This document shows positions 13,450 to 44,016 of a stretch of 44,900 nt of DNA, piece after piece. The DNA lies in the IMG/VR virus record IMGVR_UViG_3300042691_033228, positions 1 to 44,900 of that record, one strand, 5' to 3'. The position numbers and the translations under genes are program-made. The stretch's first letter is position 1; the number at the start of each line of letters is the position of its first letter. The notes below the pieces were generated by a model that was given only the letters and a program-made list of their open reading frames with translations, was not told where the DNA came from and made no database searches. The DNA is from a virus.

Positions 13450-14020
13450 TTGTTTCTTTCTTCATCTTTTTATAATACTTCCTACCAACAGGTTCGTAGG
13501 AATCATTACCACCTATCATAACTTTATTACCATCAAAAACAGGGACACCATTATTAGTCCTCATATTCATAGATGATTTATCATCGTAACGACAAACAGT
13601 TCTTAATTCTTCAATTTCATCGGCTAAAGTCATAAGGTAAATAGAACCCTCAAAAGGTTCTCCTTTAAAATCGGATCTCAATCCATAGGTTATCACATCA
13701 CAATTTAATTCATCTACTATATCAGTAAGTTGCCATACCTGACTTTTAGTTAAGAATTGGGATTCATCAATAAAAACACAGTCACACCCAAAAGAATTTT
13801 CACTAACAAACTGAAATAGGTTAGTGGACTCATCAAAACAATATGCGTCTCTACTAATACCTATCCTAGACGCAATTTTATTTTTACCATACCTATCGTC
13901 TAAACAAGAAGTAAATAATATTACATTTCTTTCTCTTTCTTCGTAATTATATGCAGTTTTTAATAAATCTAATGATTTTCCTGCACCCATCGTTGAGTAT
14001 CTAAAATATAACTTTGCCAT
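13442..14020 (-). CDS. tdk: Thymidine kinase
   Basis: 192 residues of the type II thymidine kinase family. A P-loop (YSTMGAGKSLDLL) starts the protein, followed by a Walker B-like VFIDESQFL and the lasso region DVITYGLRSDFKGEPF. It phosphorylates thymidine to dTMP with ATP for phage DNA synthesis. The four zinc-binding cysteines of the usual C-terminal domain are reduced here (only a RTVCRYD cysteine is seen), so structural zinc may be absent. The thioesterase gene follows with overlap. Confidence 0.9.
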   Translation of the reverse strand: MAKLYFRYSTMGAGKSLDLLKTAYNYEERERNVILFTSCLDDRYGKNKIASRIGISRDAYCFDESTNLFQFVSENSFGCDCVFIDESQFLTKSQVWQLTDIVDELNCDVITYGLRSDFKGEPFEGSIYLMTLADEIEELRTVCRYDDKSSMNMRTNNGVPVFDGNKVMIGGNDSYEPVGRKYYKKMKKETNG

Positions 14021-14036
14021 AATTTTTTTTTACAAT

Positions 14037-14045
14037 TATAAATAT
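14037..14045 (-). promoter_or_regulatory. ATATTTATA motif before thymidine kinase
   Basis: The minus-strand ATATTTATA lies 16 bp before the ATG at 14020 in the divergent gap between tdk and the plus-strand gene at 14074. On the plus strand the same region reads AATATTTATT, so one element may serve both. Confidence 0.35.
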
Positions 14046-14073
14046 TTATTTTTATAAAATAAAGTGATGAAAT

Positions 14074-14499
14074 ATGAAATATAAATTAAATAAAAAAGAA
14101 ATCAGTAGACTTTTATCTGATTACGAATATATGGGTTTTGATGAAGAATATGCAAAAGATGACTTAATAGATTTAGTTTCATATCTTAATAATTTAAATT
14201 CACCATTAACTTTATATAGGATAATTTGTTCAGATAGTAAGGAAGAGATAAATTTATCTAAGGTTGGGTCACATTACTCACTTAATAAGAAAAATTTAGT
14301 ATTCAGTCACTACAGAAGGGGTAGTGTTGCTGGAGACTGTAGAGGGGAAAAAGTATTTCTTTTAACGGTATCTGCAGATAAATCATTGATAAATGTGATG
14401 GAAACACTATCTAACAATATTTTATACCCACACGAAGAAGAAATAACTTTAAAAAAATTTGGTTATGGTGTTAGTGTAATTAATATTGAACAATTATAA
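14074..14499 (+). CDS. ADP-ribosyltransferase-like protein
   Basis: 141 residues on the strand opposite to its neighbours. Three pieces fit the R-S-E signature of arginine-type mono-ADP-ribosyltransferases (T4 Alt/ModA, VIP2): LTLYRI with Arg49, GSHYSLN with Ser66/Ser69, and HEEEITL with a Glu-x-Glu at 121-123. Spacing is compact but feasible. Phages use such enzymes to modify host RNA polymerase or other proteins early. The fold assignment rests on motifs seen by eye and needs confirmation. Its end overlaps the convergent DUF2452 gene by 6 bp. Confidence 0.5.
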   Translation: MKYKLNKKEISRLLSDYEYMGFDEEYAKDDLIDLVSYLNNLNSPLTLYRIICSDSKEEINLSKVGSHYSLNKKNLVFSHYRRGSVAGDCRGEKVFLLTVSADKSLINVMETLSNNILYPHEEEITLKKFGYGVSVINIEQL

Positions 14500-14883
14500 T
14501 TTTTCCCACACACCGTTATTTAACAAAAGATAACTACCTAAATATTTCTGTTTCCACTCATTAGGTTTAATAATACTTAAAAACAATATTCCGTTTTGAT
14601 TTTCGTATAAATGGTATGACTCTCCAACTATGGGTTGAAAGTTGTATTGTGATTCATACACTAACTTACTATTTTGGTAGTCGTTAACTAAAGATTCGTA
14701 TTCTCGCTTCAATTCATTCAATCTACTGTTAAAATACTTGTCTGCCTTTAAACTTTCACTCTTATCAACAACTATAGGATCAAATTTTTGTGACCCTATA
14801 GTTGTTGGATAAGATTTAGTATTTGCATCAAAAGTATTTGTATCTACATTATAGACTACATTGTCAGGATACTTTTTTGTCAT
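14494..14883 (-). CDS. DUF2452 protein
   Basis: 129 residues. The pattern KYPDNVVYNVDTNTFDANTK, then SYPTTIGSQKFDP, NFQPIVGESYHLYE and NGILFLSIIKPNEWKQKYLG matches what I recall of the DUF2452 family, found in Bacteroidota, some eukaryotes and large phages. Function is unknown. Start overlaps the IMPDH-like stop as ATGA, so it is coupled to purine metabolism here. Confidence 0.75.
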   Translation of the reverse strand: MTKKYPDNVVYNVDTNTFDANTKSYPTTIGSQKFDPIVVDKSESLKADKYFNSRLNELKREYESLVNDYQNSKLVYESQYNFQPIVGESYHLYENQNGILFLSIIKPNEWKQKYLGSYLLLNNGVWEKL

Positions 14884-15968
14884 AATAAATGTGCTTTTGA
14901 TTCTGCCATACCCGAATTAGTTATTTCAACAAAAGTTGCATTATCATTAAATTCAGAAATAGTTTTACATCCACTATAAGATAATGCGGATCTAACTCCA
15001 TCGTTTAAACTTTCTACTATATAACTAACACCACCTTTAAATGGTATCAATGTTGATTCACCCTCAATATTTTTTTGAGCCTGCCCATGACTAGATTTAG
15101 TCTCCAAACTTGCAGAACCTCTATACTTTTTATATAGTGATCCATTATTTCTCTCAACGATATTTCCTGGAGATTCTTTTGTCCCTGCCAATAATGAACC
15201 TAACATTACACAAGACGCACCAATACCTAAAGCCTTAGCAATATCACCACTATTTCTTATTCCACCGTCTGCCATAACAGGTATCCCTTTAGACCCATTT
15301 ACACAATCCATTATTGATGTTATGTTAGGTACACCGTGACCAGTTTTAATTCTTGTTGTGCATAAACTACCACCACCAATACCAACTCTTAGTCCATCTG
15401 CACCCCACTCAATTAAGTCTAATGCAGATTCTTCGGTTGATATGTTTCCAGCAATTATGTCCACAAAATCAGGTAAAGTTTTTTTAAGTTCAGAAATCAT
15501 GTTTTTGACATTGTAATGGTGCCCATGAGCAACATCTATTAGAATTATATTTGCACCAGACACAACAAGTTTTTTTGATCTCGATATATCGGATTCCATA
15601 ACACCTACTGCTGCCATAACAGGAATGTCTTTAATTTCAGTATGCCAATCATCATACATAACACCCCATTCTTCATACGTGTTATTATATTTAAAGTGTG
15701 CTCTAACCTTTCTTACTTCTTCACATTGTTCCTCTATTGACATAAATCTATGGATACAACCCACACCACCCAATTCTGCCATCTTAATTGCCATTTCAGA
15801 TTCACAAACTGTGTCCATACAGGATGCAACGTAAGGTGTTAAAATTCCATATCTCCTAGTAACATTAGTATTTAAACTAATATTTGATCTACTACTAATA
15901 TCAGAATATTTTGGAACTAATAACACATCGTCATAAGTTAAACTACTTTTAATAATTTTATCCCTCAT
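14880..15968 (-). CDS. IMP dehydrogenase / GMP reductase family enzyme
   Basis: 362 residues of the IMPDH/GMPR TIM-barrel family, starting at the ATG at 15968 (MRDKIIKSSLTYDDVLLVPK). Seen are VASCMDTV, GGVGCIHRF, the catalytic loop RVGIGGGSLCTTRIKTGHG with Cys203, ADGGIRNSGDIAKALGIGA and the flap YRGSASLET. There is no CBS pair between strands, so it is the short form. The C-terminal half (IPFKGGVSYIVESLNDGVRS followed by ALSYSGCKTISEF) is IMPDH-like. It would shift IMP to XMP or GMP to IMP to tune purine pools; which reaction is not clear from sequence alone. Confidence 0.85.
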   Translation of the reverse strand: MRDKIIKSSLTYDDVLLVPKYSDISSRSNISLNTNVTRRYGILTPYVASCMDTVCESEMAIKMAELGGVGCIHRFMSIEEQCEEVRKVRAHFKYNNTYEEWGVMYDDWHTEIKDIPVMAAVGVMESDISRSKKLVVSGANIILIDVAHGHHYNVKNMISELKKTLPDFVDIIAGNISTEESALDLIEWGADGLRVGIGGGSLCTTRIKTGHGVPNITSIMDCVNGSKGIPVMADGGIRNSGDIAKALGIGASCVMLGSLLAGTKESPGNIVERNNGSLYKKYRGSASLETKSSHGQAQKNIEGESTLIPFKGGVSYIVESLNDGVRSALSYSGCKTISEFNDNATFVEITNSGMAESKAHLL

Positions 15969-15975
15969 CTTATTT

Positions 15976-16119
15976 TTATTTTTTTGGTTCAATATTATTT
16001 TTTTCTTTTACTTCTTCTGACAAAACATGGAATAGTAGTCCTGGTAAACACAAAACTAACGGACCTAACAAAAGTAATGCAGATATAATCCTCAATACCC
16101 AATACAATAATTTACTCAT
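15976..16119 (-). CDS. Small membrane protein
   Basis: 47 residues, below the size most callers accept. One hydrophobic helix (LLYWVLRIISALLLLGPLVL, continuing CLPGLLFHV) followed by a charged tail EEVKEKNNIEPKK. The ATG at 16119 overlaps the preceding stop (ATGAGTAA) and the gene ends 7 bp before the IMPDH-like start. The tight fit in the operon supports it as real. Confidence 0.6.
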   Translation of the reverse strand: MSKLLYWVLRIISALLLLGPLVLCLPGLLFHVLSEEVKEKNNIEPKK

Positions 16120-22899: not shown

Positions 22900-24018
22900 T
22901 TAAAATATTGTGTTAAAACCTGATATAATCATATAACTTTGATTATTTATATTTTTTGTTTTTAAATGATCCGATTCCATAGCATTTGATATCATTTCTT
23001 TAATCATACCCATTTCATCAAATTCAATAATATTTTCATCTATTGCCTCTTCTATTGTTAATTCTGACATGTTAATGTATTCATAAGGATTATTTGTATA
23101 ATCTTCATATATTTCTTCATGCCTATAATGGGTATATATATTAATGATGTCTTCTTTTGATGGGACTTTTTCTTTTAAATCTTCTAACTCACCCTCTAAA
23201 CTTGAGATGTTCATTAATAAATTATTATATTCATCACTTAATTCACTTATTTTAGTCTCTATGTTATCTAAATATTTGGTGTATTCATCGGAATCATCTT
23301 CATCATCTATTTGTTGTAGTATAATCATTCTTTCAGATTCCAACCTGTCTATTTTTTTAATTATTGAATTTTTATTTCTATTGTTAATTTTTATTTCAAC
23401 TTCGTAGTCCACTACCATTTCTTTATTATATTCAATATCTTCAATAATATCCCCACCAATATATTCTAACATTTCATCTGGTGACATATTAGTTATCTCT
23501 TCTTTAATTATTTCAGTGATATTGTAATCCAATATTTCCTCATTTAATTTCATATATTTTTCTAACATCCAAATACTATAACTACCAAATTCAGTTTCAA
23601 ACATTTTTTCTCTAATACTTCTAACTAAATCATTATAAGTCCCAACCTCATATAAATTATTATCAGGTATATAGTTATATATTTCTAAATCATAGATATT
23701 TCCCCTAAAAACAAATAATTCTGGATTAACATTTAATGATTCTGCAATCGCCCTAACTTCATTACTATAATCATTTTCTGATGGTACTACCCAATTAATA
23801 GATTCATCATACATTCCATCATCCTCAATTGAATTATTTTTATATAACTTTATGACTCTACTAATCACATCTTTATCATCAATATGTAATTCTCTATTTA
23901 AAGTTTTATATATATCTGTTGAATTTTTAGATATAGAATTTTTATGTAGATAATTAAGTAATTTTAAATCTACTCTATTGACATCAATATTTTCTTTTAT
24001 TAGTCTATGTATCTTCAT
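22900..24018 (-). CDS. Tagged protein with shared helical domain and coiled coil
   Basis: 372 residues. Leader MKIHRLIKENIDV contains IKE at 7-9. Residues about 15-65 (LLNYLHKNSISKNSTDIYKT, then LNRELHIDDKDVISRVIKLY) are the helical domain shared with 28878, 35129, 9772 and 20125. The centre (WVVPSENDYSNEVRAIAESL and beyond) is also similar to the 28878 protein, showing the two are paralogs. A coiled coil follows at about 220-285 (KKIDRLESERMIILQQIDDE). I infer a head-packaged protein. No enzymatic motif seen. Confidence 0.65.
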   Translation of the reverse strand: MKIHRLIKENIDVNRVDLKLLNYLHKNSISKNSTDIYKTLNRELHIDDKDVISRVIKLYKNNSIEDDGMYDESINWVVPSENDYSNEVRAIAESLNVNPELFVFRGNIYDLEIYNYIPDNNLYEVGTYNDLVRSIREKMFETEFGSYSIWMLEKYMKLNEEILDYNITEIIKEEITNMSPDEMLEYIGGDIIEDIEYNKEMVVDYEVEIKINNRNKNSIIKKIDRLESERMIILQQIDDEDDSDEYTKYLDNIETKISELSDEYNNLLMNISSLEGELEDLKEKVPSKEDIINIYTHYRHEEIYEDYTNNPYEYINMSELTIEEAIDENIIEFDEMGMIKEMISNAMESDHLKTKNINNQSYMIISGFNTIF

Positions 24019-24026
24019 TAGTTAAC

Positions 24027-24917
24027 TTATTTAAACATTCCCATTGTACCAAATTTTGTAACATAATTGTCATAACTTTCTATCTCAGTAATTTCATTTT
24101 CCTCAAATGGTAAATCGTCTGAATGAACTTCTTCATATACATCACCATAAGATTTATTTAATACCATATATATTATATCACTATTATTTTCAAAAAAATC
24201 TACTATATTATCATCCGAAAAATGATCTGATATAGATTTTTTAAAATCACCTACACTAAGTAAAGTATACTGAATTTCTTCCAAAATATAATATTGTTCT
24301 CTATCGTACCATTCACCACTACCATCACAATATGAACAAGATACTACCCCATCACCATCACAATCGTTACATGTTTCAGTTCCAGAACCACCACAGTCTT
24401 CACATTCTATTTCTTCCTCTTCATTATCACCTATTTCTATATTTTCTACCCCACTACCATCACAATAACTACATTCTAAACTACCATCACCATCACAATT
24501 GTTACAGGTTTCTACCCCACTACCATCACAATCGTCACATCTTAATGTTACATCCCTAATATCTTCTTTAATTTCATCAGCACAAGTTATATACGTTAAA
24601 GTATATTCCTCACCCGTAGATAGTTTATCCGTTAAAAAATTATCAACGTTTAAATTTATAATATATAAAAAAATTAAATCATTAACTTGTTTATCTTCTA
24701 AATGTAAATCATCATAAAAAAATTTTTTCAATACTTTAAAAGATTTAGTTTGTATCAGTGATTGTTCCAAATAACAATCTTCACAATTTACTCTAGATAA
24801 AAAATAATTTTTTATTTCAGGAAAATTACTAGAAAACAAATTTAAACATTTTCTATAAAAAACATTATCTAAACTAGAATGATTAATATCTTCATTTATT
24901 AAACTTATCAACTTCAT
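24027..24917 (-). CDS. Tagged protein with six DnaJ-type zinc motifs
   Basis: 296 residues. Leader MKLISLINEDINHSS holds INE at 7-9. A helical segment with FFYDDLHLEDKQVNDLIFLY fits the shared domain. From residue 127 to 201 there are six CxxCxGxG motifs at 127, 138, 149 and 172, 183, 194: two triplets spaced 11 residues apart inside each triplet and split by an acidic linker. DnaJ has four such motifs with different spacing. No J-domain (HPD) is present. Zinc binding is near certain; the protein could act as a chaperone-like holdase or bind a partner. The tag suggests packaging in the head. It precedes the cupin-like gene at 24919 in the operon. Confidence 0.75.
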   Translation of the reverse strand: MKLISLINEDINHSSLDNVFYRKCLNLFSSNFPEIKNYFLSRVNCEDCYLEQSLIQTKSFKVLKKFFYDDLHLEDKQVNDLIFLYIINLNVDNFLTDKLSTGEEYTLTYITCADEIKEDIRDVTLRCDDCDGSGVETCNNCDGDGSLECSYCDGSGVENIEIGDNEEEEIECEDCGGSGTETCNDCDGDGVVSCSYCDGSGEWYDREQYYILEEIQYTLLSVGDFKKSISDHFSDDNIVDFFENNSDIIYMVLNKSYGDVYEEVHSDDLPFEENEITEIESYDNYVTKFGTMGMFK

Positions 24918-26495: not shown

Positions 26496-27281
26496 TTATA
26501 CTCCTTGTTTTATTGAAGCCTCCTGAGAACTAGATGCAGTTTGTGGTACACAATCACCCATACTATCATCTGACATTATAGTCATAAGTCCTCCTATGAA
26601 ATCAGTCATTATTGAATTTGCCAACCCACCTGTTTTCTCACCAAACTTTTCTCTTATACCATCAGATATAATTGTTAACATTTGAGCACTTATAAATCCA
26701 CCACCTACTGCTTTTAAAATAGTTTTTGCTATCGATTTTAAGAAACCTTTTTGTTGTCCGTATCTACGATACAACATTTCAATAGCATCATCAATCGTAA
26801 AATTATTTGATTCTTCCTTAGTTAATAAATTATTAGTAATTAATTCATTTTTCATATCCTCATGAATTCTTTGGAATAAATCATATACCTGTTTTTTAAC
26901 AGGATCCATTCTTTCTTTAGCCAACGTACCAGGTTTTCTACCTTTTCTACAATCTTCAGCATTTAAATCCTCTAACTTACCATAAAGTGAACCTAAAGGT
27001 TCTACTATCGCTTGTAGTTGGGTTTTATAATTAGATAAATTTGCCGATTTCATTTTTGTAGTAAACTCTTCTAACGACTTTTCAACATCACCTGAATTAA
27101 CTTCACCAGATTGTTTCTGATTGTTATTTGCAGTATTTGTTTTACCCTGTGAAGGATTCGTTGTCTTATTTTTACCAAATCTAGATAAAATAGTTTTTGC
27201 CTTATCTAAAAAATTTTCGGTAACTAAGGATTGATTATTTATCAATCTTCTAAATTGTCTTTCAGTAATTATAATTTTCAT
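26496..27281 (-). CDS. Tagged protein with hydrophobic centre
   Basis: 261 residues from the ATG at 27281; a longer frame to 27314 would overlap the upstream gene. The leader MKIIITERQFRRLINNQSLV includes ITE at 5-7 and TE again at residue about 21. An Asn/Thr/Gln-rich linker follows, then helices and a hydrophobic glycine-rich stretch (KAVGGGFISAQMLTIISDGI). Unknown function; hydrophobic part could interact with membranes on entry (inference). Confidence 0.6.
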   Translation of the reverse strand: MKIIITERQFRRLINNQSLVTENFLDKAKTILSRFGKNKTTNPSQGKTNTANNNQKQSGEVNSGDVEKSLEEFTTKMKSANLSNYKTQLQAIVEPLGSLYGKLEDLNAEDCRKGRKPGTLAKERMDPVKKQVYDLFQRIHEDMKNELITNNLLTKEESNNFTIDDAIEMLYRRYGQQKGFLKSIAKTILKAVGGGFISAQMLTIISDGIREKFGEKTGGLANSIMTDFIGGLMTIMSDDSMGDCVPQTASSSQEASIKQGV

Positions 27282-27294
27282 AATATTGTTTTTT

Positions 27295-28872
27295 TTACCA
27301 CCAAGTGCCACCACCTGATAATCCTAATTGTTTTGCATATCTAGGTAATCTACAACTCCAGTAACCTGCACTACATTTATCATTTTTTTGTGGGCAATTA
27401 TGTCTATCAGAGAATGCCTTTCTCGCTTTAGGGTCTCTTAACTTAACTGCCAACGCTCCACCACCTGATTTTGCACCAAATGATATCTTTCTAACGTTCC
27501 CATTACACATAACATAAACGTAGAATTTTTTTGATCCACCTCTTTTAGGTTTACTAAGTTCTACTTTTTTACCCCTATATTCTGCCTCATTTAAATCGTA
27601 ATATTCATTTGGTATGTCTAACCAAACTAATTTACCTTCATATATACCTTGTTTACCAATGTCAGTTTTAATTATTTCTAAATCATTATATGATAAATCT
27701 ACTTTACCTTTTTCATATAAATCTCTAACTTCATTGATTAGATTAAAAAATGATTCACTACCATATCTATAAACAGTCTCAGTTAAAGGAATTTGATTAT
27801 CTACATGATATTTTAAACCTTCACTAATGATAGTTCTACTTTCAGTTAATAACATTCTATCGTAGTTTAGTGATTCATTCTTTTTAGATTTATACCCTTT
27901 TATTTTAATTGGACTCGGAGATTGACCTTTACCTGATTTACCATCAGTTTTTTCTCTTTCTCTTTTACGTCTACAAGCCGAATCCTTTGCAGATTGACTC
28001 ATATTTGCAGCAACACTCTTTGCCCTACAAACAGGGTAACCACCTTTATCAGAATCACCTCTACCACATTCAGGATGTCCTCCACCCTCTTTTTTTCTAC
28101 ATATATTAACCCAAGGTCCTTGTGGTTGTTTACTACCTTTACCTTTTTTCTTAGTACCAAACCATACCGCCAAATCCTCATGTATTTTTATATCATGAAA
28201 CGAATCTAAATCTTGTGCCATTTCTGGTGACCAAGATTCATTGGCTTTACCAGAACAGTAACTACCACTACATCTTTTATTACCATCTAAACCAGCAATT
28301 TCACCTTTACATACCTGAACTGCATGTCCATTAGCGTATGCTGACGGATAAACATCGTACTTAGATTTTGCAGAACTTATACCTCTAGCACATAGTTTAT
28401 TTTTCTTTTTCTTCCTACCTTCAGTTAAGTTTTCTGCATCTTCTTCATTTTCTTCTTCTTTATGGCTTGATGGCATGATAGAAATATCATATTTATTTAA
28501 TATCTTTTCTAACGCAATTGGTATTGCCATAGACACCGCACCCATACTCATAACCGCAACTATTTTTGCAATATCTTTAGACTGGGATTTTAAGAATTTT
28601 ATATCTCTTTCAGAAACTTCTTTCTTTGAAAGTAGATTACCTAAAATTTTTACTGCCTCTACAGTCTCCAATTTTTCTCTTTTTGCAATACTAACAAAAT
28701 TTTTCCATGAGTTATACATATCCTCTTTTTTATTTTTAAAAAAAGTTTTTACCTTTTCACCAAGCTCATTAACCATTTTAGGTTCTTCTTCTGAAAATAA
28801 CCCTGTCGATTTACCATCAAACCTCATTTCATTAAACAATCTTTTATATTGTTCTTTATTTAATATCCCCAT
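27295..28872 (-). CDS. Polyprotein-like tagged protein
   Basis: 525 residues with separate modules and [I/L]xE sites between them. 1-148: helical with a hydrophobic segment at about 102-123. LTE at 149-151. 152-330: two Cys-rich modules (CARGISSAKSKYDVYPSAYA and WVNICRKKEGGGHPECGRGD), recurrent in marine phage proteins. LTE 342-344, ISE 349-351, LTE 363-365, INE 379-381, LNE 427-429 followed by Ala. 430-525: KKFYVYVMCNGNVRKISFGA and RHNC plus AGYWSCR, a domain I recall at the end of phage structural or internal head proteins. The start MGILNKEQYKRLFNEM is a variant of the tag. It may be cut into several head proteins. Confidence 0.65.
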   Translation of the reverse strand: MGILNKEQYKRLFNEMRFDGKSTGLFSEEEPKMVNELGEKVKTFFKNKKEDMYNSWKNFVSIAKREKLETVEAVKILGNLLSKKEVSERDIKFLKSQSKDIAKIVAVMSMGAVSMAIPIALEKILNKYDISIMPSSHKEEENEEDAENLTEGRKKKKNKLCARGISSAKSKYDVYPSAYANGHAVQVCKGEIAGLDGNKRCSGSYCSGKANESWSPEMAQDLDSFHDIKIHEDLAVWFGTKKKGKGSKQPQGPWVNICRKKEGGGHPECGRGDSDKGGYPVCRAKSVAANMSQSAKDSACRRKREREKTDGKSGKGQSPSPIKIKGYKSKKNESLNYDRMLLTESRTIISEGLKYHVDNQIPLTETVYRYGSESFFNLINEVRDLYEKGKVDLSYNDLEIIKTDIGKQGIYEGKLVWLDIPNEYYDLNEAEYRGKKVELSKPKRGGSKKFYVYVMCNGNVRKISFGAKSGGGALAVKLRDPKARKAFSDRHNCPQKNDKCSAGYWSCRLPRYAKQLGLSGGGTWW

Positions 28873-28877
28873 TTTAT

Positions 28878-29963
28878 TTATTCCATTTGATATATGTAAT
28901 ATGTTTTGCCATCATAATCTTGATCTCTTTCATAACCGTCATAATATGATAGTGTATTACCCCTATCTTCATTTTCTGCCAAATAAGTTATTAACCCCGA
29001 TTTATCAAAACTATAAAAAGAATCTATTGCTTGAGACATAGTATACCCCATATTATGTATAAAATAGTCTAACCCCTCGTTTTCAATTTCCTCCTTTTTA
29101 TCTTCCGTATATTTATCCAATAATTCCTCTTTAGCATCATCTAATAAAGAATCTAATCGACTTTGTTCATTTTCTAATTGTCTTTCTAAATCTTCTAAAT
29201 CAGAATTCAGTTCTCGTATTTTAATACTAATAGAGTCGATATCTGAATCGTTTTCCCCCTCTTCATTATCATCTTCTAAAACACTCATTTCATTATCTAA
29301 ATCAGATATTTCATCTGTAATTTCTTCTATCCTTGCCTCAATTGATTCTATTTCATCTGTAATTTCATCTTTATCGTATCCCGATTCACTTAAAATATCA
29401 TCATCATCCAAATTATCTATCATAATTTGCGCTTCTTGAGTAGCCAATTCATCCAATACGTAATAATCTAGTTCAATAAAGTCCTCTAGATCCCAAGAAT
29501 TTAAGTTTTCTATACCATTATCATCTATCCAACCATCATAATATTCTTCCATCGCCCTATTTGACTTATAATCATCCCCAACCGCGTATACTGAATCATC
29601 TTCTAAATCTTTATATACATTCAACCCATAATGGGAATATGGTTCTTCTATAATGAGTGATGGTGGTAAATTTAACGATATTGATAATGCGATGTGTTCA
29701 TTATCATAATTGGAGTAATCATCTATATTTTCTAATTCAGAATCACTCAAGTCGGCATAATTACCATCTTCCCTAAAACTGTTTATAAATAAATGAGTTA
29801 ATTCACTTTTTAATTTTGTGTCAGAAATGTTTAAGTCTTTAGTTAAGAATGCCCATATTTCTGAAACATCATCAGTTTCACCCAAACTAATTGTCATTGC
29901 CCTTAGAACCCTTTTATGTATTGGTTGAATTGTATTTTCTAATATAAGTTTACTTAATTTCAT
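28878..29963 (-). CDS. Tagged protein with shared helical domain and coiled coil
   Basis: 361 residues, paralog of the 22900 protein. Leader MKLSKLILENTIQPIHKR includes ILE at 7-9. The helical domain (AMTISLGETDDVSEIWAFLT, then KDLNISDTKLKSELTHLFIN) follows, then a region with HIALSISLNLPPSLIIEEPY aligned to the paralog. A long acidic coiled coil covers about 200-275 (IESIEARIEEITDEISDLDN). No active site seen. First gene of the large tagged block that runs to 22900. Confidence 0.65.
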   Translation of the reverse strand: MKLSKLILENTIQPIHKRVLRAMTISLGETDDVSEIWAFLTKDLNISDTKLKSELTHLFINSFREDGNYADLSDSELENIDDYSNYDNEHIALSISLNLPPSLIIEEPYSHYGLNVYKDLEDDSVYAVGDDYKSNRAMEEYYDGWIDDNGIENLNSWDLEDFIELDYYVLDELATQEAQIMIDNLDDDDILSESGYDKDEITDEIESIEARIEEITDEISDLDNEMSVLEDDNEEGENDSDIDSISIKIRELNSDLEDLERQLENEQSRLDSLLDDAKEELLDKYTEDKKEEIENEGLDYFIHNMGYTMSQAIDSFYSFDKSGLITYLAENEDRGNTLSYYDGYERDQDYDGKTYYIYQME

Positions 29964-30038
29964 ATTTATTAATATTTACATTTATATTAATAAATATTAC
30001 TTTTATTAATAAAATAAACAATATTAAAAATTTTAATT

Positions 30039-30227
30039 ATGTTAATTATAAATGTTAAGAATGGAGGTATTGAAAGATCCCTTAAAGAACTTAAAAATAA
30101 ATTTATGAAAACCAATATGGGTAAAGAATGTTTATTAAGAAAAGAATTTATAAAAAAATCAATCAAAAAAAGATCTGATTTACAAAAAGCAATATACACT
30201 CAAAATAAAAAAAGAAATAACGATTAA
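30039..30227 (+). CDS. rpsU: Ribosomal protein bS21
   Basis: 62 residues. MLIINVKNGGIERSLKELKN then KFMKTNMGKECLLRKEFIKK and SIKKRSDLQKAIY match bacterial bS21 over its whole length, including the basic C-terminal helix. bS21 sits in the 30S platform near the mRNA exit and the anti-Shine-Dalgarno region; in Flavobacteriia ribosomes it helps hide that region. A phage copy could replace the host protein and change which messages are translated. The frame is followed directly by the ferritin gene (stop TAA then ATG), so both form an operon. No Shine-Dalgarno is visible. Confidence 0.9.
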   Translation: MLIINVKNGGIERSLKELKNKFMKTNMGKECLLRKEFIKKSIKKRSDLQKAIYTQNKKRNND

Positions 30228-30722
30228 ATGGAAGAAAAAGTTTTAAGTTTATTAAATGAACAAATATGGTTAGAGAATAGGGCATCCTATTATTACTTAA
30301 ACCTATCTATTTTATGTGACTCAAAAGGATTTAAAGGTATGTCTAAATTTTTTAGGGAACAATCTAATGAAGAAAGAAGACATATGTTGACTATATGTGA
30401 TTACATTTTAGAGTGTGATGAGACACCAATTATACCATCGAATACATTTTTAGATTTAGATGAACTAAGTTTTGACAATATTTTAAAAATTTTTGAGGAT
30501 AGCCTTTTTAATGAAAAAGAAATCACTAATTCATTTTATAATATTTTAAATGTTTGTAATGGACTAAATGATTATAGAACTGAAAACTTTATCCATTCAT
30601 TCATTATAGAACAAAGGGAAGAAGAATCTAAATTCAAATCTTTAGTAGACGAATTAAAAATTATAGGTAGTAACACTACGAGTGGGTTAGGGTTATATGT
30701 TTTTGATAAGAACATATCTTAA
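30228..30722 (+). CDS. Ferritin
   Basis: 164 residues with the four-helix ferritin layout of bacterial non-haem ferritin. Ligands at the diiron site: Glu16 (WLENRASYYYLNLS), Glu49 and His52 (SNEERRHM, the ExxH pair), a Glu in LFNEKEITNSF and the C-terminal EQREEE. Its length is normal for Ftn. It would oxidise Fe(II) and store iron in a 24-subunit shell. Iron storage by a phage may protect against Fenton damage or secure iron for virion proteins; this is a guess. It shares an operon with bS21 and converges with the small gene at 30719 (4-bp overlap). Confidence 0.85.
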   Translation: MEEKVLSLLNEQIWLENRASYYYLNLSILCDSKGFKGMSKFFREQSNEERRHMLTICDYILECDETPIIPSNTFLDLDELSFDNILKIFEDSLFNEKEITNSFYNILNVCNGLNDYRTENFIHSFIIEQREEESKFKSLVDELKIIGSNTTSGLGLYVFDKNIS

Positions 30723-30907
30723 ATTATTTTTACATAAACATAAAGATAATCCAAAGACTCTACAAATTTTATGTCACCACTTAACCCCTTTTTTTTTGCC
30801 TTAAATTTATAACCATCATAAATTTTATCAAAATTACATTGTAATTCTTCAGATTTTATTTTACCTAAATAAAATAACGCCTTATCATTTTGTTCGATAT
30901 TTTCCAT
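30719..30907 (-). CDS. Small unknown protein with hairpin over its start
   Basis: 62 residues (MENIEQNDKALFYLGKIKSE...), Lys/Asp/Tyr-rich, no family recognised. The start codon lies within the outer arm of a long inverted repeat (30904-30950), so translation or transcription is probably controlled by it. It converges with ferritin. Confidence 0.5.
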   Translation of the reverse strand: MENIEQNDKALFYLGKIKSEELQCNFDKIYDGYKFKAKKKGLSGDIKFVESLDYLYVYVKII

Positions 30908-30973: not shown

Positions 30974-32965
30974 TTATAAAATATTATTGTCGTTTGTTTC
31001 ATCATGCATCTGTATTATTCTACCTAAACCACCTAAAGTAATATTCCTAAACCTATCATAATCAACGTTATTTGCTAGACGAGGGAGATCATCTTCATCC
31101 TCAACCACTGGTAAGTCAACAATATATTCGTTACGTACTGCAACAGGTTCTAAACCAAATGAACTACTATTACCTTTAGTGTCTTCATCTTTTAATGTAA
31201 TTAAAAATCCCCTATTTAGTAGTTCAATATCCGAAAATGATCTTAATTTCTTTTCATAATTCTGAATAAATAATATATGATTTAACCTATTGACTAATAT
31301 ATTACCAATACTTTTATGGTACTCACTCGTCTCTTTATTACAATAAGAAAGTATCTGAACCATTTTATATGTCATTTCATTTTCTGATAACTGAATTTCT
31401 AATGCAGACATATTATTAGGGGTAATCAAAACAAATATTTTTGTTTTACCTGTTTTAATTTTACTTTTATAATTTTGACCAGGATTATTAATACAATTTT
31501 TAAGTTTATTTCCCGCCCATCTTAAATCTAATACACTAGTTAATTCTTTAATTTTTATATCGTAAGGTAGATTTAAATCACCGTATTCTGTTGGTTTGGT
31601 GATGTCTTCACCGTATTTTTTCTTCTCCTTAGTTAATTCACTCAACATATTATCATATGTTGGTTTAAAAAGAATATTACGAGTTAATAAAGATTTTTGT
31701 AATAATGGAGATATCCATTCACCGTCAGAATTAAATAACTTATTTATATCTTTAACTAATGTATACGTTTCTTGAACATTCATATTAAATTTATATGAAA
31801 CAAATAATATCCATCTTTCTGAATCAACATACTTTTCAATATAATCAATATGTGATTTATCAAAATCACAATTATGAAATCCTTTATTGATTAGACAAAG
31901 CATTTTACAGAAATAACCATTTTTCAAAATTATCTCAGCCTTAGATTTTTGTTTCTTACCTATACTACCAGAAATTAATTTATACGCTGACATAAAAGTA
32001 AGTGGGTTAAATGACAACCCCTCCAATATTGAGAATATTTCAACGTTAGATACAGAATATTTTTTAGGTGTTAGTGTCCAAATAACATCATTAAATTTTG
32101 CCCATCTACTTAATATTTCTTGCGGTACACTGTAATTAGGTATTAACCAATTAACCTTTTCATTGGAATCTAAATCGTTATTTTTAGGATCATTTCTTAA
32201 TTTCCATAAATCCCTTTTGTGATCAAAATATTTAGAAATTGTGAAATATTCTTTAATATTAGTTCGATATTTCAGATACATTTCTTTATATTTTGAACCA
32301 AAATATATACCAAAACTCCTTACAGTCATTTTGTTAATGTTTTCTAGAATTAGTGGTTGACTCAATAATTCCATACACTTCTCAATATCACAGTAACAAT
32401 CCAACTCATCCATTTTTTTAAATAATCTGATTGCAGTATGTGAAGGAGTATAAATTGCGGTAACTTCTAGTTGTTTATTATATAAGAAGTTTTTAAACTC
32501 TTCAGTATAGATAAGTTTATTCGTACTTAAATCAATACCTACCTGACAACAATTAAAATCAAAACCACTTAACACATAAGTGTAGTCTGTTTTAGGTGTA
32601 TCTGTATTAAATGTCTTTTTAATATAGATAGTATTTAAGAAACCCTCTCTTTCCACCCTATCAATACTATAAGTTGTATATGAGTCATATGCCATCTTAG
32701 TGATCATATAACCATCACCCTCAATATTTAATGAATTAGATCTTATAGGTGTGAAAGATCTTGAGTTGTACTCATTAGTTTCAATAAAAATATCTAAATC
32801 ATTTACTGGGTAATCACCACCCCAAACCATTTTTAAAATAGTATTAGCGACTGCACCTCCAGCCAAAAATCCTGCGTTAGGTATGTAATCATATTTACTT
32901 AATTCGGTAAGTATTTCACTCACTAACGATTCTTTCTCTAAAACATTATTTGTCATCTCTATCAT
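30974..32965 (-). CDS. Nucleotidyltransferase plus PcfJ-like protein
   Basis: 663 residues. The first 150 form a polymerase-beta-type nucleotidyltransferase core: LAGGAVANTILKMVWGG with GG at 36-37, then DLDIFIE (Asp56, Asp58) and a third Asp near 136 in GFDFNCCQVGID. A long helical middle is unknown. Around 470-560 is a PcfJ-like segment (DLRWAGNKLKNCINNPGQNY, KTKIFVLITPNNMSALEIQL). The combination suggests transfer of nucleotides to RNA or protein, but substrates are unknown. ATG codons at 32965 and 32956 are both possible; it overlaps the upstream membrane-protein gene. Confidence 0.65.
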   Translation of the reverse strand: MIEMTNNVLEKESLVSEILTELSKYDYIPNAGFLAGGAVANTILKMVWGGDYPVNDLDIFIETNEYNSRSFTPIRSNSLNIEGDGYMITKMAYDSYTTYSIDRVEREGFLNTIYIKKTFNTDTPKTDYTYVLSGFDFNCCQVGIDLSTNKLIYTEEFKNFLYNKQLEVTAIYTPSHTAIRLFKKMDELDCYCDIEKCMELLSQPLILENINKMTVRSFGIYFGSKYKEMYLKYRTNIKEYFTISKYFDHKRDLWKLRNDPKNNDLDSNEKVNWLIPNYSVPQEILSRWAKFNDVIWTLTPKKYSVSNVEIFSILEGLSFNPLTFMSAYKLISGSIGKKQKSKAEIILKNGYFCKMLCLINKGFHNCDFDKSHIDYIEKYVDSERWILFVSYKFNMNVQETYTLVKDINKLFNSDGEWISPLLQKSLLTRNILFKPTYDNMLSELTKEKKKYGEDITKPTEYGDLNLPYDIKIKELTSVLDLRWAGNKLKNCINNPGQNYKSKIKTGKTKIFVLITPNNMSALEIQLSENEMTYKMVQILSYCNKETSEYHKSIGNILVNRLNHILFIQNYEKKLRSFSDIELLNRGFLITLKDEDTKGNSSSFGLEPVAVRNEYIVDLPVVEDEDDLPRLANNVDYDRFRNITLGGLGRIIQMHDETNDNNIL

Positions 32966-33138: not shown

Positions 33139-34128
33139 CTATATAATATCTTCTAAATAACTTTTAACTTCTTTAACCATTTCATTTTTACTAGCACCAA
33201 CTTTAATCATATCAGATAATAAATCAACAATTTCGTATGAAATGTGTTCAATATATAAACTTTCATTTATATCAACATCGTCTTCATCGTTATCGTCATC
33301 CATAAATGGTGAATAACTATATTGATTAGTTTCAGTGATTAATTTTTTATTGTGGGTATACTTAACAGTACCTAAGTGGTTAATTAATTTTTCACCCGCT
33401 ATTAAAGATGACTCAACTTCTTTAACTACCACATACTCAAAATCGGTATGTTGTCTATAGTATCCACAACCTAAATTAAGACAATTAAAATCATACTTAG
33501 TTGATAATTGATTTACGTCTGTAAATGGATCTCTACTAAAATTTGTGTAACCAGATTCTTTTAAATTATTTTTTATAATTCCTTTAAAATCTTCATCAAA
33601 TAATTTAACCCCCCAACAAACTTCAGTTATCCAGTTACTAGATGGTGCATCGAATTGGATTGCATATCCAACATTTGAGAAAAAGTTGTCATCAGATTGT
33701 TTAGAACCTAACATACCTATTTCTTCCTCAACAAAAAACGCACCTTTTAATTTGTCGAATTTTTTGAATAATTCTAAACAAACATAAACACCACATTTGT
33801 CATCACCACCAATACCTGTTTGTTTATCTGTTTCAGGATGATATGCAGTTAACACACCTAAATTATCTTCTTTGATGGATAGTCTAACTTTGTTTTGAAT
33901 TAAGTTGTTATGTGTTCTATGTACAGTGTCCATATGAGAAACCACACATGGGTAATATTCTTCCGTAGAATCTAACATACCTTTACAAAGATAAAGATTA
34001 CCCTTTTTATCACTATAATGTTCTATACCGTGTTTCTCTGCGAATTCAATGATGAAGTCTCTAACCATACTTTCATCTCCCGAAATTGAAGGTAATGATA
34101 ATACCTCCTTTAAAAAATCTAAATTCAT
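33139..34128 (-). CDS. M20-type zinc peptidase
   Basis: 329 residues of the M20/M28-like aminopeptidase clan (similar to tripeptidase T). Metal ligands and catalytic residues can be placed: VVSHMDTVH (HxD), GIGGDDKCG (bridging Asp), FFVEEEIG (catalytic Glu and ligand Glu), QFDAPSS (Asp) and a late RQHTDFE (His). It would release amino acids from short peptides in the cytoplasm. An acidic stretch with FMDDDNDEDDVD sits before the last helix. It has its own host-type promoter, suggesting early recycling of host peptides. Confidence 0.8.
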   Translation of the reverse strand: MNLDFLKEVLSLPSISGDESMVRDFIIEFAEKHGIEHYSDKKGNLYLCKGMLDSTEEYYPCVVSHMDTVHRTHNNLIQNKVRLSIKEDNLGVLTAYHPETDKQTGIGGDDKCGVYVCLELFKKFDKLKGAFFVEEEIGMLGSKQSDDNFFSNVGYAIQFDAPSSNWITEVCWGVKLFDEDFKGIIKNNLKESGYTNFSRDPFTDVNQLSTKYDFNCLNLGCGYYRQHTDFEYVVVKEVESSLIAGEKLINHLGTVKYTHNKKLITETNQYSYSPFMDDDNDEDDVDINESLYIEHISYEIVDLLSDMIKVGASKNEMVKEVKSYLEDII

Positions 34129-34353: not shown

Positions 34354-34782
34354 TTAAGTTAGTTGGTTTGCGGGTCCTCTAGCTGGTTCAACCGACCAAG
34401 GTGAATTGTCTATTGGATTCGCAACACCTCTAGTTACATCTTTAAGTGGCCAAACACTAGCAGTTCCTCCAGCAGGTGCGTCTCCACCCTCTTCCTCATC
34501 CAATATTTCTTCATCAAACTGATTTGTGTAATCATCTACACCTATACCGTATTCAGTTACTACTAAACCATATCCACCTTCTTTATCGTAATACCCTAAA
34601 TAAATTCCTTTATCGTCATAAACTACTGTTTCGTAAGAATTACTATCAAAGTTAAGTCTTTTAGGTTCATTATTAACCCATTTAAGAATTTTTTTATACC
34701 ATCTTTTAGGATCTTTGATTGTTTCACCAAACTCCCTAATTAATATTTTTTTATATTGACTCTCTGTAATTATAATTTTCAT
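34354..34782 (-). CDS. Tagged protein with RGxANxI C-terminal repeats
   Basis: 142 residues from the ATG at 34782. Leader MKIIITESQYKKILIREFGE has ITE at 5-7. The middle is mixed (DDKGIYLGYYDKEGGYGLVV). The C-terminus has two similar units, TRGVANPIDNSPW and ARGPANQLT, after a Gly/Ala-rich linker; this pattern I recall in phage structural proteins. Probably packaged in the virion. Start overlaps the upstream stop by one base pair set (ATGA). Confidence 0.6.
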   Translation of the reverse strand: MKIIITESQYKKILIREFGETIKDPKRWYKKILKWVNNEPKRLNFDSNSYETVVYDDKGIYLGYYDKEGGYGLVVTEYGIGVDDYTNQFDEEILDEEEGGDAPAGGTASVWPLKDVTRGVANPIDNSPWSVEPARGPANQLT

Positions 34783-35132
34783 CACCAATTCCTTTCTCTA
34801 TTGTTAATAACATTTAATAGTTTAACTTTTATATTTTCTTTTCCAGTTGTTTCTATTATTTGTTTTTCTAAATCCCAAAAAAAACTACCTACATCGGCAG
34901 TATCAAAAATAGTATCGATATAAATAATCAACCCAATTTCGTTATCAAATGCAGTTGCAACATTAACACTTTCTATAATATCTAAAGTTTCGCAATCGAC
35001 ATCTTCATCAGAATAATCCCAATTTTCATCTTCTGTAGAATTTCCACAAATATTCATTAAATTACTCAATGAGATATCTACTATTTTTTGATAAACAGTT
35101 AATAATTGACTTTCTGTTATTAAAACTTTCAT
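34782..35132 (-). CDS. Tagged acidic protein
   Basis: 116 residues. Leader MKVLITESQLLTVYQKIV has ITE at 5-7. The rest is acidic and beta-rich (AFDNEIGLIIYIDTIFDTAD). It overlaps the 35129 gene by four bases. Probably a virion-packaged protein. Not otherwise recognised. Confidence 0.6.
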   Translation of the reverse strand: MKVLITESQLLTVYQKIVDISLSNLMNICGNSTEDENWDYSDEDVDCETLDIIESVNVATAFDNEIGLIIYIDTIFDTADVGSFFWDLEKQIIETTGKENIKVKLLNVINNRERNW

Positions 35133-35710
35133 TTTTTTAATGTAATATATTGGTTTATTTCTTCTGATGTCCAGTCGTTACTAAAGTCCCTTAAAATATC
35201 TTGTGCCATATCTATTACAAGTTCCGTATCATCAACATCCCAATCTAAATCAGGATCACGATTATACCTCGTATTAGGTAAATTTATCCCATTAAAATTA
35301 TCATCTACAATCTTTGACACTGCGTTACTCAATGCCTCTTCGGCTGAACCAGCTTTTACTGTTATCTCATAATCAAGAAAAGTCCTACAATAAACTGTAG
35401 TAGGTAAACCAATACTAATTACGTAATTACCTTGAAATTCTAATGGTTTACCCAAAAACGATTCGTATTCGTTATCTGATAAATTTTTAAATGTTTTTTC
35501 GTAATTGTAAACTATTGTAGTCGCATCCACATCACTTAAACCCCAATCATTTTTTAATTCTTTAATTGTTTTATCGGTATTAGTATAAAATTTATTTAAA
35601 GATCTCATAATCTTTAATATTTTTGGTGTGATGGTACTACCTACAGACAGTTGTTCACTATCTTCTTTAAATAGTTTTTTATACTGCGTTTCAGTTAGTT
35701 TAATTTTCAT
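35129..35710 (-). CDS. Tagged protein with shared helical domain
   Basis: 193 residues. Leader MKIKLTETQYKKLFKED has LTE at 5-7. Residues about 30-80 (IMRSLNKFYTNTDKTIKELK, then NDWGLSDVDATTIVYNYEKT) fit the helical domain shared with 22900, 28878, 9772 and 20125. C-terminal half contains GSAEEALSNAVSKIVDD and is unknown. Likely packaged. Confidence 0.6.
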   Translation of the reverse strand: MKIKLTETQYKKLFKEDSEQLSVGSTITPKILKIMRSLNKFYTNTDKTIKELKNDWGLSDVDATTIVYNYEKTFKNLSDNEYESFLGKPLEFQGNYVISIGLPTTVYCRTFLDYEITVKAGSAEEALSNAVSKIVDDNFNGINLPNTRYNRDPDLDWDVDDTELVIDMAQDILRDFSNDWTSEEINQYITLKK

Positions 35711-36095: not shown

Positions 36096-36386
36096 CTATA
36101 AAATCTCTTTTATTTTGGTTGTTAAGACGGATTCACTTAGAATTCCACTATTCCTCCACACCTGTTTACCTTCTTTGACTACTACCAAAGTAGGGATACT
36201 TCTTATTTGAAATTGTGCCGCAACGTTCCTATTTTCATCAATATTGATTTTGACTACTTCTACATCATCGTTATTTTTTTTAAAATTTTCGATGATAGGG
36301 TTCATCATTCTACATGGTCCACACCACTCTGCCCAAAAATCTATTAGTACAGGTTTTTCCGATTGTAATAAAGTTTCTAATTCCAT
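36096..36386 (-). CDS. Thioredoxin
   Basis: 96 residues of the thioredoxin family with the active site AEWCGPCRMM (Cys22, Cys25) and the cis-proline loop RSIPTLVVV. No signal peptide, so cytoplasmic. Phage thioredoxins can reduce ribonucleotide reductase or other proteins. A single-gene unit with its own terminator and an ATATTTATA motif 27 bp upstream. Confidence 0.9.
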   Translation of the reverse strand: MELETLLQSEKPVLIDFWAEWCGPCRMMNPIIENFKKNNDDVEVVKINIDENRNVAAQFQIRSIPTLVVVKEGKQVWRNSGILSESVLTTKIKEIL

Positions 36387-36413
36387 TTTTTTATTTTTTC
36401 AATTATTATTTAT

Positions 36414-36422
36414 TATAAATAT
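36414..36422 (-). promoter_or_regulatory. ATATTTATA motif before thioredoxin gene
   Basis: ATATTTATA followed by ATAAATAATAATTG on the minus strand, about 27 bp before the ATG at 36386. It overlaps the T-run of the terminator that ends the FKBP gene. Confidence 0.4.
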
Positions 36423-36426
36423 AAAA

Positions 36427-36443
36427 GGGGGAATAAATCCCCC
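36427..36443 (-). terminator. Intrinsic terminator after FKBP gene
   Basis: GGGGGA and TCCCCC form a short GC-rich stem with a 5-base loop; a TTTT tract follows on the minus strand. It lies 22 bp after the FKBP stop. Confidence 0.7.
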
Positions 36444-36464
36444 CGTCTGAAACACTATTTTTAT

Positions 36465-36887
36465 TTATTTTACCTCTAACACCTCTACGTCAAAGAATAA
36501 CTTTTTACCAGCCATAGGATGATTGGCATCCAGTTTAACCCCTTCTTCGGTGATTTCGGTTACAACAACATTTATTGTACCTCTGTCACTTTCTGACATT
36601 AAGTAGTCACCAACTTGAACACTTTCAGGTACTCTATCTGAAGGAACTACTGTTACCAAACCTTCCATATACTCACCGTAACCGTCTACTGGTTCGATTT
36701 CAATAGTTTTCTTTTCTCCCTGATTCATACCCAATAAACCTTTTTCAAAACCTAAAATTAGTGATCCTTGACCTAAAACAATGTTTAAAGGTTCTCTACC
36801 TTCTTCTAAAGAAGTGTCAAATACTGTACCGTCCTCAAATCTTCCTGTGTAGTGGACAACTACACCCTTACCATTTTCTACTATCAT
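36465..36887 (-). CDS. FKBP-type prolyl isomerase, SlyD-like
   Basis: 140 residues. VVVHYTGRFEDGTVFDTSLE, LGQGSLILGFEKGLLGMNQG and DANHPMAGKKLFFDVEVLEV are the FKBP sites; the insert between about 70 and 125 corresponds to the flap domain of SlyD. It speeds proline isomerisation and acts as a chaperone in the cytoplasm. The metal-binding His-rich tail of SlyD is missing. Together with thioredoxin next door it suggests a protein-folding module for phage products. Confidence 0.85.
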   Translation of the reverse strand: MIVENGKGVVVHYTGRFEDGTVFDTSLEEGREPLNIVLGQGSLILGFEKGLLGMNQGEKKTIEIEPVDGYGEYMEGLVTVVPSDRVPESVQVGDYLMSESDRGTINVVVTEITEEGVKLDANHPMAGKKLFFDVEVLEVK

Positions 36888-36964: not shown

Positions 36965-37735
36965 ATGAGAAAATTAATAAAACAAATATTGAAAGAGGAA
37001 TTATATAAAAATTTAATTACAGAAGGTAAAGGAGATTTTATTGCTAAAACCAAAGATTTAGCACTTAAAAATATGGATACATATAAAATACCTGCCAGTA
37101 TTACTATGGCTCAGGCCGCACTAGAGAGTGGATGGGGTAGAAGTTTATTACCTTCTAAATATAATAATTATTTTGGCGTTAAATGTCACAATGCCTCAAA
37201 TTGTGTATCATTAAAAGATGCGGATGGTAATTTGGCAGAATGGAGGTCTTACGATAGTATTGCCGATTCGTTTGATGATCACGGTAAATTCTTAACTAGT
37301 AATCAAAGATATAGTGAATTATTTAGTTTACCTATCACAGATTACCAATCTTGGGCAGAAGGTTTACAAAGATTAAATTATGCGGGAAATTCTACAACAT
37401 ATGCAGATAAACTAATAAGAACAATTGAGGCTAACGACTTCAATTTATTAGATATGTCAAAAACAAAACAAAAACCTAAAACCCCAAATGTTGTAGGTAA
37501 AAAAGTTTATCCTAAAAAATCTAATGGGTATGTTAACGTAAGAGAAGGGGCTTATGTAGATTCAGGGTTTTTCGACAATTTAATGACTAGGATAGAATAT
37601 CCATCATTAGTGGGTGTAGTTGAAGGTAAAAAATTAGACGATAAATCAAATATGTGGTACTACGTTAGATTAGAAAAACATGTTGATGATTATAGATATG
37701 GTTGGGTTAGGTCAGATGTGGTAGATTTGAAATAA
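36965..37735 (+). CDS. Tagged glucosaminidase (GH73) with SH3-like tail
   Basis: 256 residues. Leader MRKLIKQILKEELYKNLITE holds LKE at 9-11 and ITE at 18-20, so cleavage would release a mature start GKGDF. The GH73-type glucosaminidase domain is at about 24-165, with catalytic Glu54 in TMAQAALESGWGRS and YNNYFGVKC downstream. Residues about 178-255 are SH3b-like (YVNVREGAYVDSGFFDNL). It cuts N-acetylglucosaminyl bonds in peptidoglycan. The prohead-type leader suggests a virion enzyme used at entry rather than the endolysin. It is on the strand opposite to its neighbours. Confidence 0.8.
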   Translation: MRKLIKQILKEELYKNLITEGKGDFIAKTKDLALKNMDTYKIPASITMAQAALESGWGRSLLPSKYNNYFGVKCHNASNCVSLKDADGNLAEWRSYDSIADSFDDHGKFLTSNQRYSELFSLPITDYQSWAEGLQRLNYAGNSTTYADKLIRTIEANDFNLLDMSKTKQKPKTPNVVGKKVYPKKSNGYVNVREGAYVDSGFFDNLMTRIEYPSLVGVVEGKKLDDKSNMWYYVRLEKHVDDYRYGWVRSDVVDLK

Positions 37736-42432: not shown

Positions 42433-43170
42433 TTATAATTCGTTAGTAGGTTTCAACCACATTCCTTTTGAGAATACCAAATCTAAAAATCCTGGTATGT
42501 AAGATTCTTCAACGGTATGAAGTAATCTTAAAGATAGTGGAGTATTGTGTTTCATCATCTTAAAGATTTCTTCTCTCATTCTTTCAACTGAAACAGTTGT
42601 TTGCAATTTCTCTAATATTTCTGGTTGAGCCATCGCATCCCATATTTTAAAGTCAATATGAAATCCTTTTGTTACTGAAAATCTTAGCGCCCTCAAAATT
42701 CTTAACGGATCGTCCATCATTGTTATATCTGGGTTTACTGGAGTTCTAAGAATACCGTCCTCAAGATCTTTAAGTCCACCAAATAAATCAATTAGGTTAC
42801 CGTATTCGTCTTCAGCCATTGCATTCAACGTAAAGTCTCTTCTAACCAAATCGTCTTCTAATGTACCTAATTCGAGAATTGGTTTTCTTGTTCCTGATGA
42901 GTAACCAACTTCCTTTCTAGCCATTACGAAGTCGGCTACTAAACCTTCATTTGGGTGATTTTTAGGAAATTTGGCTCTAATTGTAAACATCTCAGGTGTG
43001 GATAGAAATATAGTAAACTCGTTATGAGTTAACCAATCAGACATAATCTGAAATCCTTCTTCTACAGTCCTATCTATATTATCTAGAACAAACGTATAAT
43101 CTATATCCTTAGAATCAACTCCTAATATACTATCTCTTACACAACCCCCTACTTTATATATCTTAGGCAT
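42433..43170 (-). CDS. cca: CCA-adding enzyme / tRNA nucleotidyltransferase
   Basis: 245 residues, class II nucleotidyltransferase. Sites: YKVGGCVRDSILG, DSKDIDYTFV (catalytic Asp pair), RRDFTLNAMAED (template-forming motif), DPLRILRALRFSV. It is shorter than usual host enzymes (about 400), ending after the head and neck parts, so the tail domain is missing. It adds CCA to tRNA 3' ends. The tRNA genes next to it lack encoded CCA, so the enzyme is needed. It follows the small gene at 43173 with a 2-bp gap. Confidence 0.85.
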   Translation of the reverse strand: MPKIYKVGGCVRDSILGVDSKDIDYTFVLDNIDRTVEEGFQIMSDWLTHNEFTIFLSTPEMFTIRAKFPKNHPNEGLVADFVMARKEVGYSSGTRKPILELGTLEDDLVRRDFTLNAMAEDEYGNLIDLFGGLKDLEDGILRTPVNPDITMMDDPLRILRALRFSVTKGFHIDFKIWDAMAQPEILEKLQTTVSVERMREEIFKMMKHNTPLSLRLLHTVEESYIPGFLDLVFSKGMWLKPTNEL

Positions 43171-43624: not shown

Positions 43625-43640
43625 AATATTTTAATATATG

Positions 43641-43714
43641 TGGTCCTTGTTGGAATCGAACCAACCACCTACTGATTATGAGTCAGTTGCTCTAACCGAA
43701 TGAGCTAAAGGACC
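43641..43714 (-). tRNA. tRNA with CAU anticodon (Met or Ile2)
   Basis: A full cloverleaf on the minus strand: acceptor GGTCCTT/AAGGACC, D-arm with GCTCATTCGGTTAGAGC, anticodon arm ACTGA-CTCATAA-TCAGT giving CAU, T-arm with TTCGATT. Discriminator A. CCA is not encoded. The acceptor and TTAGCTCA start resemble tRNA-Ile2 (CAU, needing lysidine) as well as elongator Met; sequence alone does not decide. Confidence 0.9.
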
Positions 43715-43758: not shown

Positions 43759-44016
43759 TTAGTCACCACATTCATTATTAACTTTCTGAGGATAAAAATA
43801 CTTTTTAATCTCAAATCTAGCATTCCGTATATTTGTAACTAAACCAAATTTATTAACCCCATTTAATTCCTCCTCTAAATGAGCTGCCGCCATATCTAAA
43901 TGATCCAAACACCCACTAATGTGCCCATCGTACCTTATATTCAAATCGCGTTTTAATCGTCTTTTTAAATCTCCTTTCCAAAGACCTTCATTAATTTTTA
44001 ATCTGTGTTTATTCAT
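43759..44016 (-). CDS. Basic unknown protein
   Basis: 85 residues, first half strongly basic (LKINEGLWKGDLKRRLKRDL). Contains CLDHLDMAAAHLEEELNG helix. May bind nucleic acid. Located between tRNA genes. Not recognised. Confidence 0.5.
   Translation of the reverse strand: MNKHRLKINEGLWKGDLKRRLKRDLNIRYDGHISGCLDHLDMAAAHLEEELNGVNKFGLVTNIRNARFEIKKYFYPQKVNNECGD

Follow-up and report, generated by a model that had tools for sequence, protein, structure and literature searches.

A phage-encoded ribosomal protein bS21 without the host Shine-Dalgarno sequence, paired with a ferritin gene

What does a phage gain by carrying its own gene for ribosomal protein bS21, and could such a protein change the start sites that host ribosomes choose? 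The question is raised by a 44.9-kb virus record of 29% G+C (hereafter the window, meaning the whole stretch of DNA analysed). The presence of bS21 in Bacteroidetes phages, the comparison at Tyr54 and the idea of ribosome takeover were published in 2022 (Chen et al., PMC9723584). An earlier note on the window proposed a start-site switch acting through the anti-Shine-Dalgarno sequence (ASD), and overlooked both the ferritin partner of bS21 and the loss of the autoregulatory Shine-Dalgarno sequence (SD).

The bS21 gene and its ferritin partner

The window bS21 gene (Table 1) is confirmed as complete. Its product matches PF01165 (Ribosomal_S21) over profile positions 2-52 of 55, with an E-value of 3.1e-8 and a score of 33.7 bits (cut-off 27), and the earlier identification of a full-length phage bS21 thus holds. 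Relative to the host protein there is a one-residue deletion at E10, and the protein is otherwise full length. Among solved structures its best relatives are 7jil chain z, which is F. johnsoniae bS21 (E 3.9e-9), and another bS21, 9i5v. The gene is more than a chance occurrence: many viral contigs hold a relative of 50-73% identity at this position, and pairwise dN/dS values in the bS21 clade are 0.06-0.48 (NG86; a rough estimate for so short a gene). No bacterial copy turned up when genome contigs were scanned with the phage protein. An internal GGAGGT within the coding sequence (about 30063) was dismissed, as it is not conserved.

In the window, the TAA of bS21 is followed directly (0 bases between) by the ATG of a ferritin gene. 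Its product qualifies as a bacterial non-heme ferritin with di-iron ligands and is predicted to bind iron: in the alignment, the FtnA di-iron ligand columns (E/E/H/E/Q/E) are conserved in the window ferritin and in all aligned phage copies. The phage protein thus shares with FtnA the family PF00210 and the di-iron residues, but is phage-encoded, with a start that abuts or overlaps the bS21 stop.

This pairing is a genomic fact. Scanning viral contigs with the ferritin alone retrieved 16 loci, all of which (16/16) have bS21 directly upstream; at these junctions the two genes overlap or are separated by 0 or +1 base. The reverse scan, with an alignment of the clade's bS21, retrieved 80 loci with 38 distinct proteins, nine with ferritin and 29 without; ferritin-paired loci make up 18 of the 80. 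When individual contigs were checked, ferritin was found on 4/4 of the ferritin clade and on 0/5 of the others. Because the bS21 stop and the ferritin start abut or overlap, the ferritin is probably co-made with bS21 by translational coupling, and its candidate roles are iron storage and DNA protection. In the open-access literature that was searched we found neither a phage bS21-ferritin pair nor a report of a missing SD in phage bS21 genes, and the main text of PMC9723584 does not mention ferritin; we therefore treat the novelty of both as provisional.

Nearly all neighbours in the window are on the minus strand, with bS21 and ferritin on the plus strand. Several flanking genes are conserved in bS21-ferritin phages (Table 1), and an M42-like peptidase gene is a further conserved flanking gene of these loci. 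The bS21 leader carries A at -3, -12 and -13 and gave no sign of RNA structure (z +0.76). Inverted TAAATATTA elements at 29978(-) and 29991(+), within 29970-30001 of the window, are kept in the closest relatives and are a candidate divergent promoter or operator of the bS21-ferritin pair.

Table 1. Coordinates of features in the window.
Feature	Position	Strand	Remarks
[ILF]xE leader genes, part 1	9470-9763, 9772-10302, 22900-24018, 24027-24917, 26496-27281, 27295-28872, 28878-29963		
Divergent 361-aa gene	28878..29963	-	conserved neighbour in bS21-ferritin phages, 29-62% identity
AT-rich 75-bp leader / divergent intergenic region	29964..30038	+	SD absent, +1.6 kcal/mol
bS21 gene	30039..30227	+	ATG to TAA, 62 aa, MLIINVKNGGIERSLKELKNKFMKTNMGKECLLRKEFIKKSIKKRSDLQKAIYTQNKKRNND
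Bacterial non-heme ferritin	30228..30722	+	164 aa; PF00210 E 7.7e-33; PDB ferritins match
62-aa gene, convergent with ferritin	30719..30907	-	conserved neighbour, 42-84%
PcfJ-like 663-aa gene	30974..32965	-	conserved neighbour, 40-78%
[ILF]xE leader genes, part 2	33139-34128, 34354-34782, 34782-35132, 35129-35710, 36965-37735, 43759-44016		
Protein with poly-A polymerase/CCA-transferase head domain	42433-43170	-	
CAT tRNA	43640-43714	-	elongator Met or Ile2 type

SD pairing, the ASD-occluding residue and a possible escape from feedback

In Flavobacteriales, the host bS21 gene (rpsU) is targeted by bS21-lacking ribosomes through an extended SD, which is the basis of its autoregulation, and in F. 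johnsoniae rpsU is derepressed 3-4 fold by the Y54A change or when the C-terminus is lost (PMC9976891). This autoregulation is a clear bacterial case of specialised ribosomes. To compare leaders, we computed the pairing energy of the 24 bases before each start with the 16S tail AUCACCUCCUUUCU. All 80 Flavobacteriales-type host rpsU loci (58 distinct leader and protein pairs, 23 distinct leaders) lie between -17.6 and -23.3 kcal/mol, whereas phage bS21 genes (64 pairs, 51 distinct leaders) range from -5.1 to +2.7 kcal/mol, with 0/51 at or below -8. The window leader, at +1.6 kcal/mol, is far from the extended SD, which we define as pairing stronger than -13. Strong pairing with an alternative, UCUCA-core anti-SD is absent from the phage bS21 leaders too.

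The protein itself has kept the feature on which host feedback depends. Tyr53 of the window bS21 corresponds to Tyr54 of F. johnsoniae, the ASD-occluding residue in stacking contact with the 16S tail, and position 54 is aromatic in 61/61 distinct phage bS21 proteins. F. johnsoniae rpsU (PMC9976891) and the phage gene thus encode the same protein with the same occluding residue, but only the host gene has the extended SD. The earlier note was right that the host type makes ASD occlusion relevant, the window protein being a Bacteroidia-type bS21, and the comparison of ASD contacts that it suggested returns the retained Tyr54 equivalent. Its start-site switch is not supported by that comparison: since no phage bS21 has lost the occluding residue, SD-based switching is not indicated.

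The identity of the gene, the absent SD, the retained ASD-occluding residue and the conserved ferritin pair on the opposite strand are read directly from the sequence. Beside them we set a mechanism that we favour tentatively, without calling it probable, in which the phage bS21 replaces the host copy, hides the ASD, keeps rpsU repressed and itself escapes the feedback. While a large T4-like phage infects the cell, its working Bacteroidia-type bS21 would replace the host copy in 30S subunits, in the platform pocket with bS18 and bS6. With the ASD still hidden by the phage protein, the resulting ribosomes would count as bS21-replete and host rpsU would stay repressed. The SD-less phage gene, read as an ordinary message, would go on being translated, so that host bS21 would be diluted out by a copy beyond host regulation.

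That a viral bS21 can enter ribosomes is known from pelagiphage HTVC008M, whose protein is found in E. coli 70S ribosomes (PMC6375957). The two phages have in common that they encode bS21, but HTVC008M has a proteobacterial host with another ribosome platform, and the window protein is known from sequence. Against the proposed escape, the absence of the SD may be the mere default of an AT-rich genome in which all genes are SD-less. In a wider sample of the phylum, moreover, 62 of the leaders of 75 host proteins with Tyr/His54 are at or below -13 but 12 are weaker than -8, and some orders are reported to lack the extended SD of rpsU (PMC9976891). Such hosts would offer no rpsU feedback to evade, which limits the escape argument to hosts with the SD. 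The wider generalisation, that the host SD is stripped from phage bS21 genes as a rule and that one clade translationally couples the takeover to iron storage, is in our judgement doubtful. The authors of PMC9976891 raised the possibility that rpsU autoregulation acts as a counter-defence to phages that carry bS21; the split between strong host leaders and SD-less phage leaders makes this directly testable with reporters.

Start regions and the N-terminal half of bS21

A favoured SD class among phage genes, as the earlier note envisaged, was not detected in the window: across 61 window genes the pairing of the SD region has a median of -1.3, identical to that of a mock region further upstream (-1.3). 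The starts are instead A-rich, with A at 70% at -12 and 59% at -3, and A-rich also at -11. Such an A-rich pattern tunes initiation in F. johnsoniae (PMC6847099), and as the window starts are likewise A-rich and SD-less, phage messages would look host-like to the ribosome. SD-less, A-rich starts of the window phage genes were also absent from the papers searched.

These starts bear on the specialised-ribosome model of PMC9723584, in line with the earlier note, in which phage bS21 would make 30S subunits prefer phage messages, here through its changed N-terminal half. Differences from the host protein are indeed concentrated in this mRNA-side half (mainly P5N, loss of E10, R18E, Y19L, R21N, D24M, G27N and T28M), and the tail-contact half is conserved, with K40, S42, R46, K51, A52, Y54 and Q56 all host-like. 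Other phage bS21 proteins diverge at positions 21, 23, 25 and 28, in a helix placed where mRNA would bind (PMC9723584). However, no distinguishing feature for such ribosomes to recognise was seen in the window starts, which lack an SD and, like those of F. johnsoniae, are rich in A at -12, -11 and -3, and position 23 of the window bS21 is a host-like Phe. We consider a preference of this kind unlikely.

The same residues can be read more simply, with phage bS21 only sustaining 30S assembly and initiation after host shut-off and having no selective or regulatory effect. The conserved tail-contact half and the purifying selection fit plain supply, as does the finding that bS21 is essential in F. 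johnsoniae (PMC9976891). Supply leaves unexplained why bS21 is carried far more commonly than other ribosomal proteins, and also the clade-specific N-terminal changes. We rate it unlikely as well, a shade below selective initiation.

Genomic settings, descent and accompanying genes

In a tree on only 64 columns, the bS21 proteins of phages fall into a single clade with Flavobacteriaceae beside it (support 97/88). Within the same 64 columns, the window bS21 groups with bS21 from the published context (99/94), which makes them orthologous phage bS21, and the ferritin-linked bS21 proteins form a clade (98/92) nested in the phage clade. It would seem from this that the gene changed place or was acquired anew among phages, rather than coming from hosts along with ferritin. 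The kinship of bS21 points to a host in the Flavobacteriales, a tentative assignment based also on the A-rich starts and on one Flavobacterium-phage homologue.

Outside the phage clade lie a huge-phage copy (L185), a host-like copy (L100) and a doubtful one (L120). L100 (IMGVR_UViG_3300002520_000085) was rejected as a phage locus and left out of the phage counts: its bS21 is 77% identical to that of F. johnsoniae, its protein and leader are nearly identical to those of bacterial L189/L190, and it is probably bacterial DNA inside the viral collection. L120 was left out of these counts for its doubtful start.

The window phage resembles those of PMC9723584 in its orthologous bS21, the aromatic residue 54, a bS21 gene on the strand opposite its neighbours and, by bS21 kinship, Bacteroidetes hosts; T4-like Gp23 is common to contigs of both types. 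The settings differ. Published bS21 genes sit among terminase, capsid and portal genes beside a hypothetical gene, whereas those of the window type are paired with ferritin and lie in an accessory region remote from the capsid gene. In agreement with the published context, a gene of about 238 aa overlaps bS21 tail to tail at most ferritin-less loci, and Gp23 (the T4-like capsid protein) is 3-6 kb from bS21 on four published-type contigs (L287, L281, L107 and L118). On contigs of the ferritin clade the distance is 88 kb (L139), 120 kb (L145), 171 kb (L148) and 190 kb (L237); if the molecules are circular, the shorter route would be about 27 kb in L148 and about 64 kb in L237. The contig behind L237 is 254 kb long. 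No terminase or Gp23 match was found in the window, and its bS21 was thus not placed within a few genes of terminase or capsid, as in the published group. The ferritin pair shows that phage bS21 can be carried apart from the late structural genes, so that, judged by position, its published link to late expression does not hold generally. Each of nine contigs checked carries one bS21. A third context was seen in L274 and L283 (IMGVR_UViG_3300021963_000037 and 3300027246_000005), in which a same-strand 86-aa gene lies about 75 bases downstream.

One residue follows the ferritin. Cys31 of the window bS21 corresponds to position 32, which is Cys in 9/9 ferritin-linked proteins versus 1/29 others and mostly Leu in the host and other phages. 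Together with the constancy of the pairing, this invites the idea that ferritin and bS21 work outside the ribosome as an iron- or redox-linked unit through an invariant Cys32. Yet the ferritin-linked proteins are a single clade, in which the Cys may be inherited by shared descent rather than selected, and L251:2001-2177 (IMGVR_UViG_3300032288_002796) encodes a bS21 with the ferritin-clade Cys (KEC) but has no downstream ferritin. We regard an extraribosomal unit as very improbable. L251 may reflect a stage that precedes the gain of ferritin, or one that follows its loss.

The window holds further translation-related genes, namely a CAT tRNA and a CCA-transferase-type protein (Table 1). The tRNA was rejected as an initiator, since by eye its anticodon stem lacks the three G-C pairs. 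Other phage-carried genes encode a thioesterase, thymidine kinase, IMP dehydrogenase, thioredoxin and FKBP (13054-15992(-), 36096-36887(-)). Finally, the N-terminus of 13 of the 63 window proteins is a short basic and hydrophobic stretch ending in [ILF]xE (for example MKIIITESQYKK and MKNTIRRILKEE), where shuffled proteins gave an expectation of 2.0 and a maximum of 7 in 500, for a pattern picked after viewing the proteins. These N-termini resemble the capsid-targeting leaders of T4-type phages, which the prohead protease cleaves; if they are such leaders, many of these unknown genes would encode proteins packed in the head.
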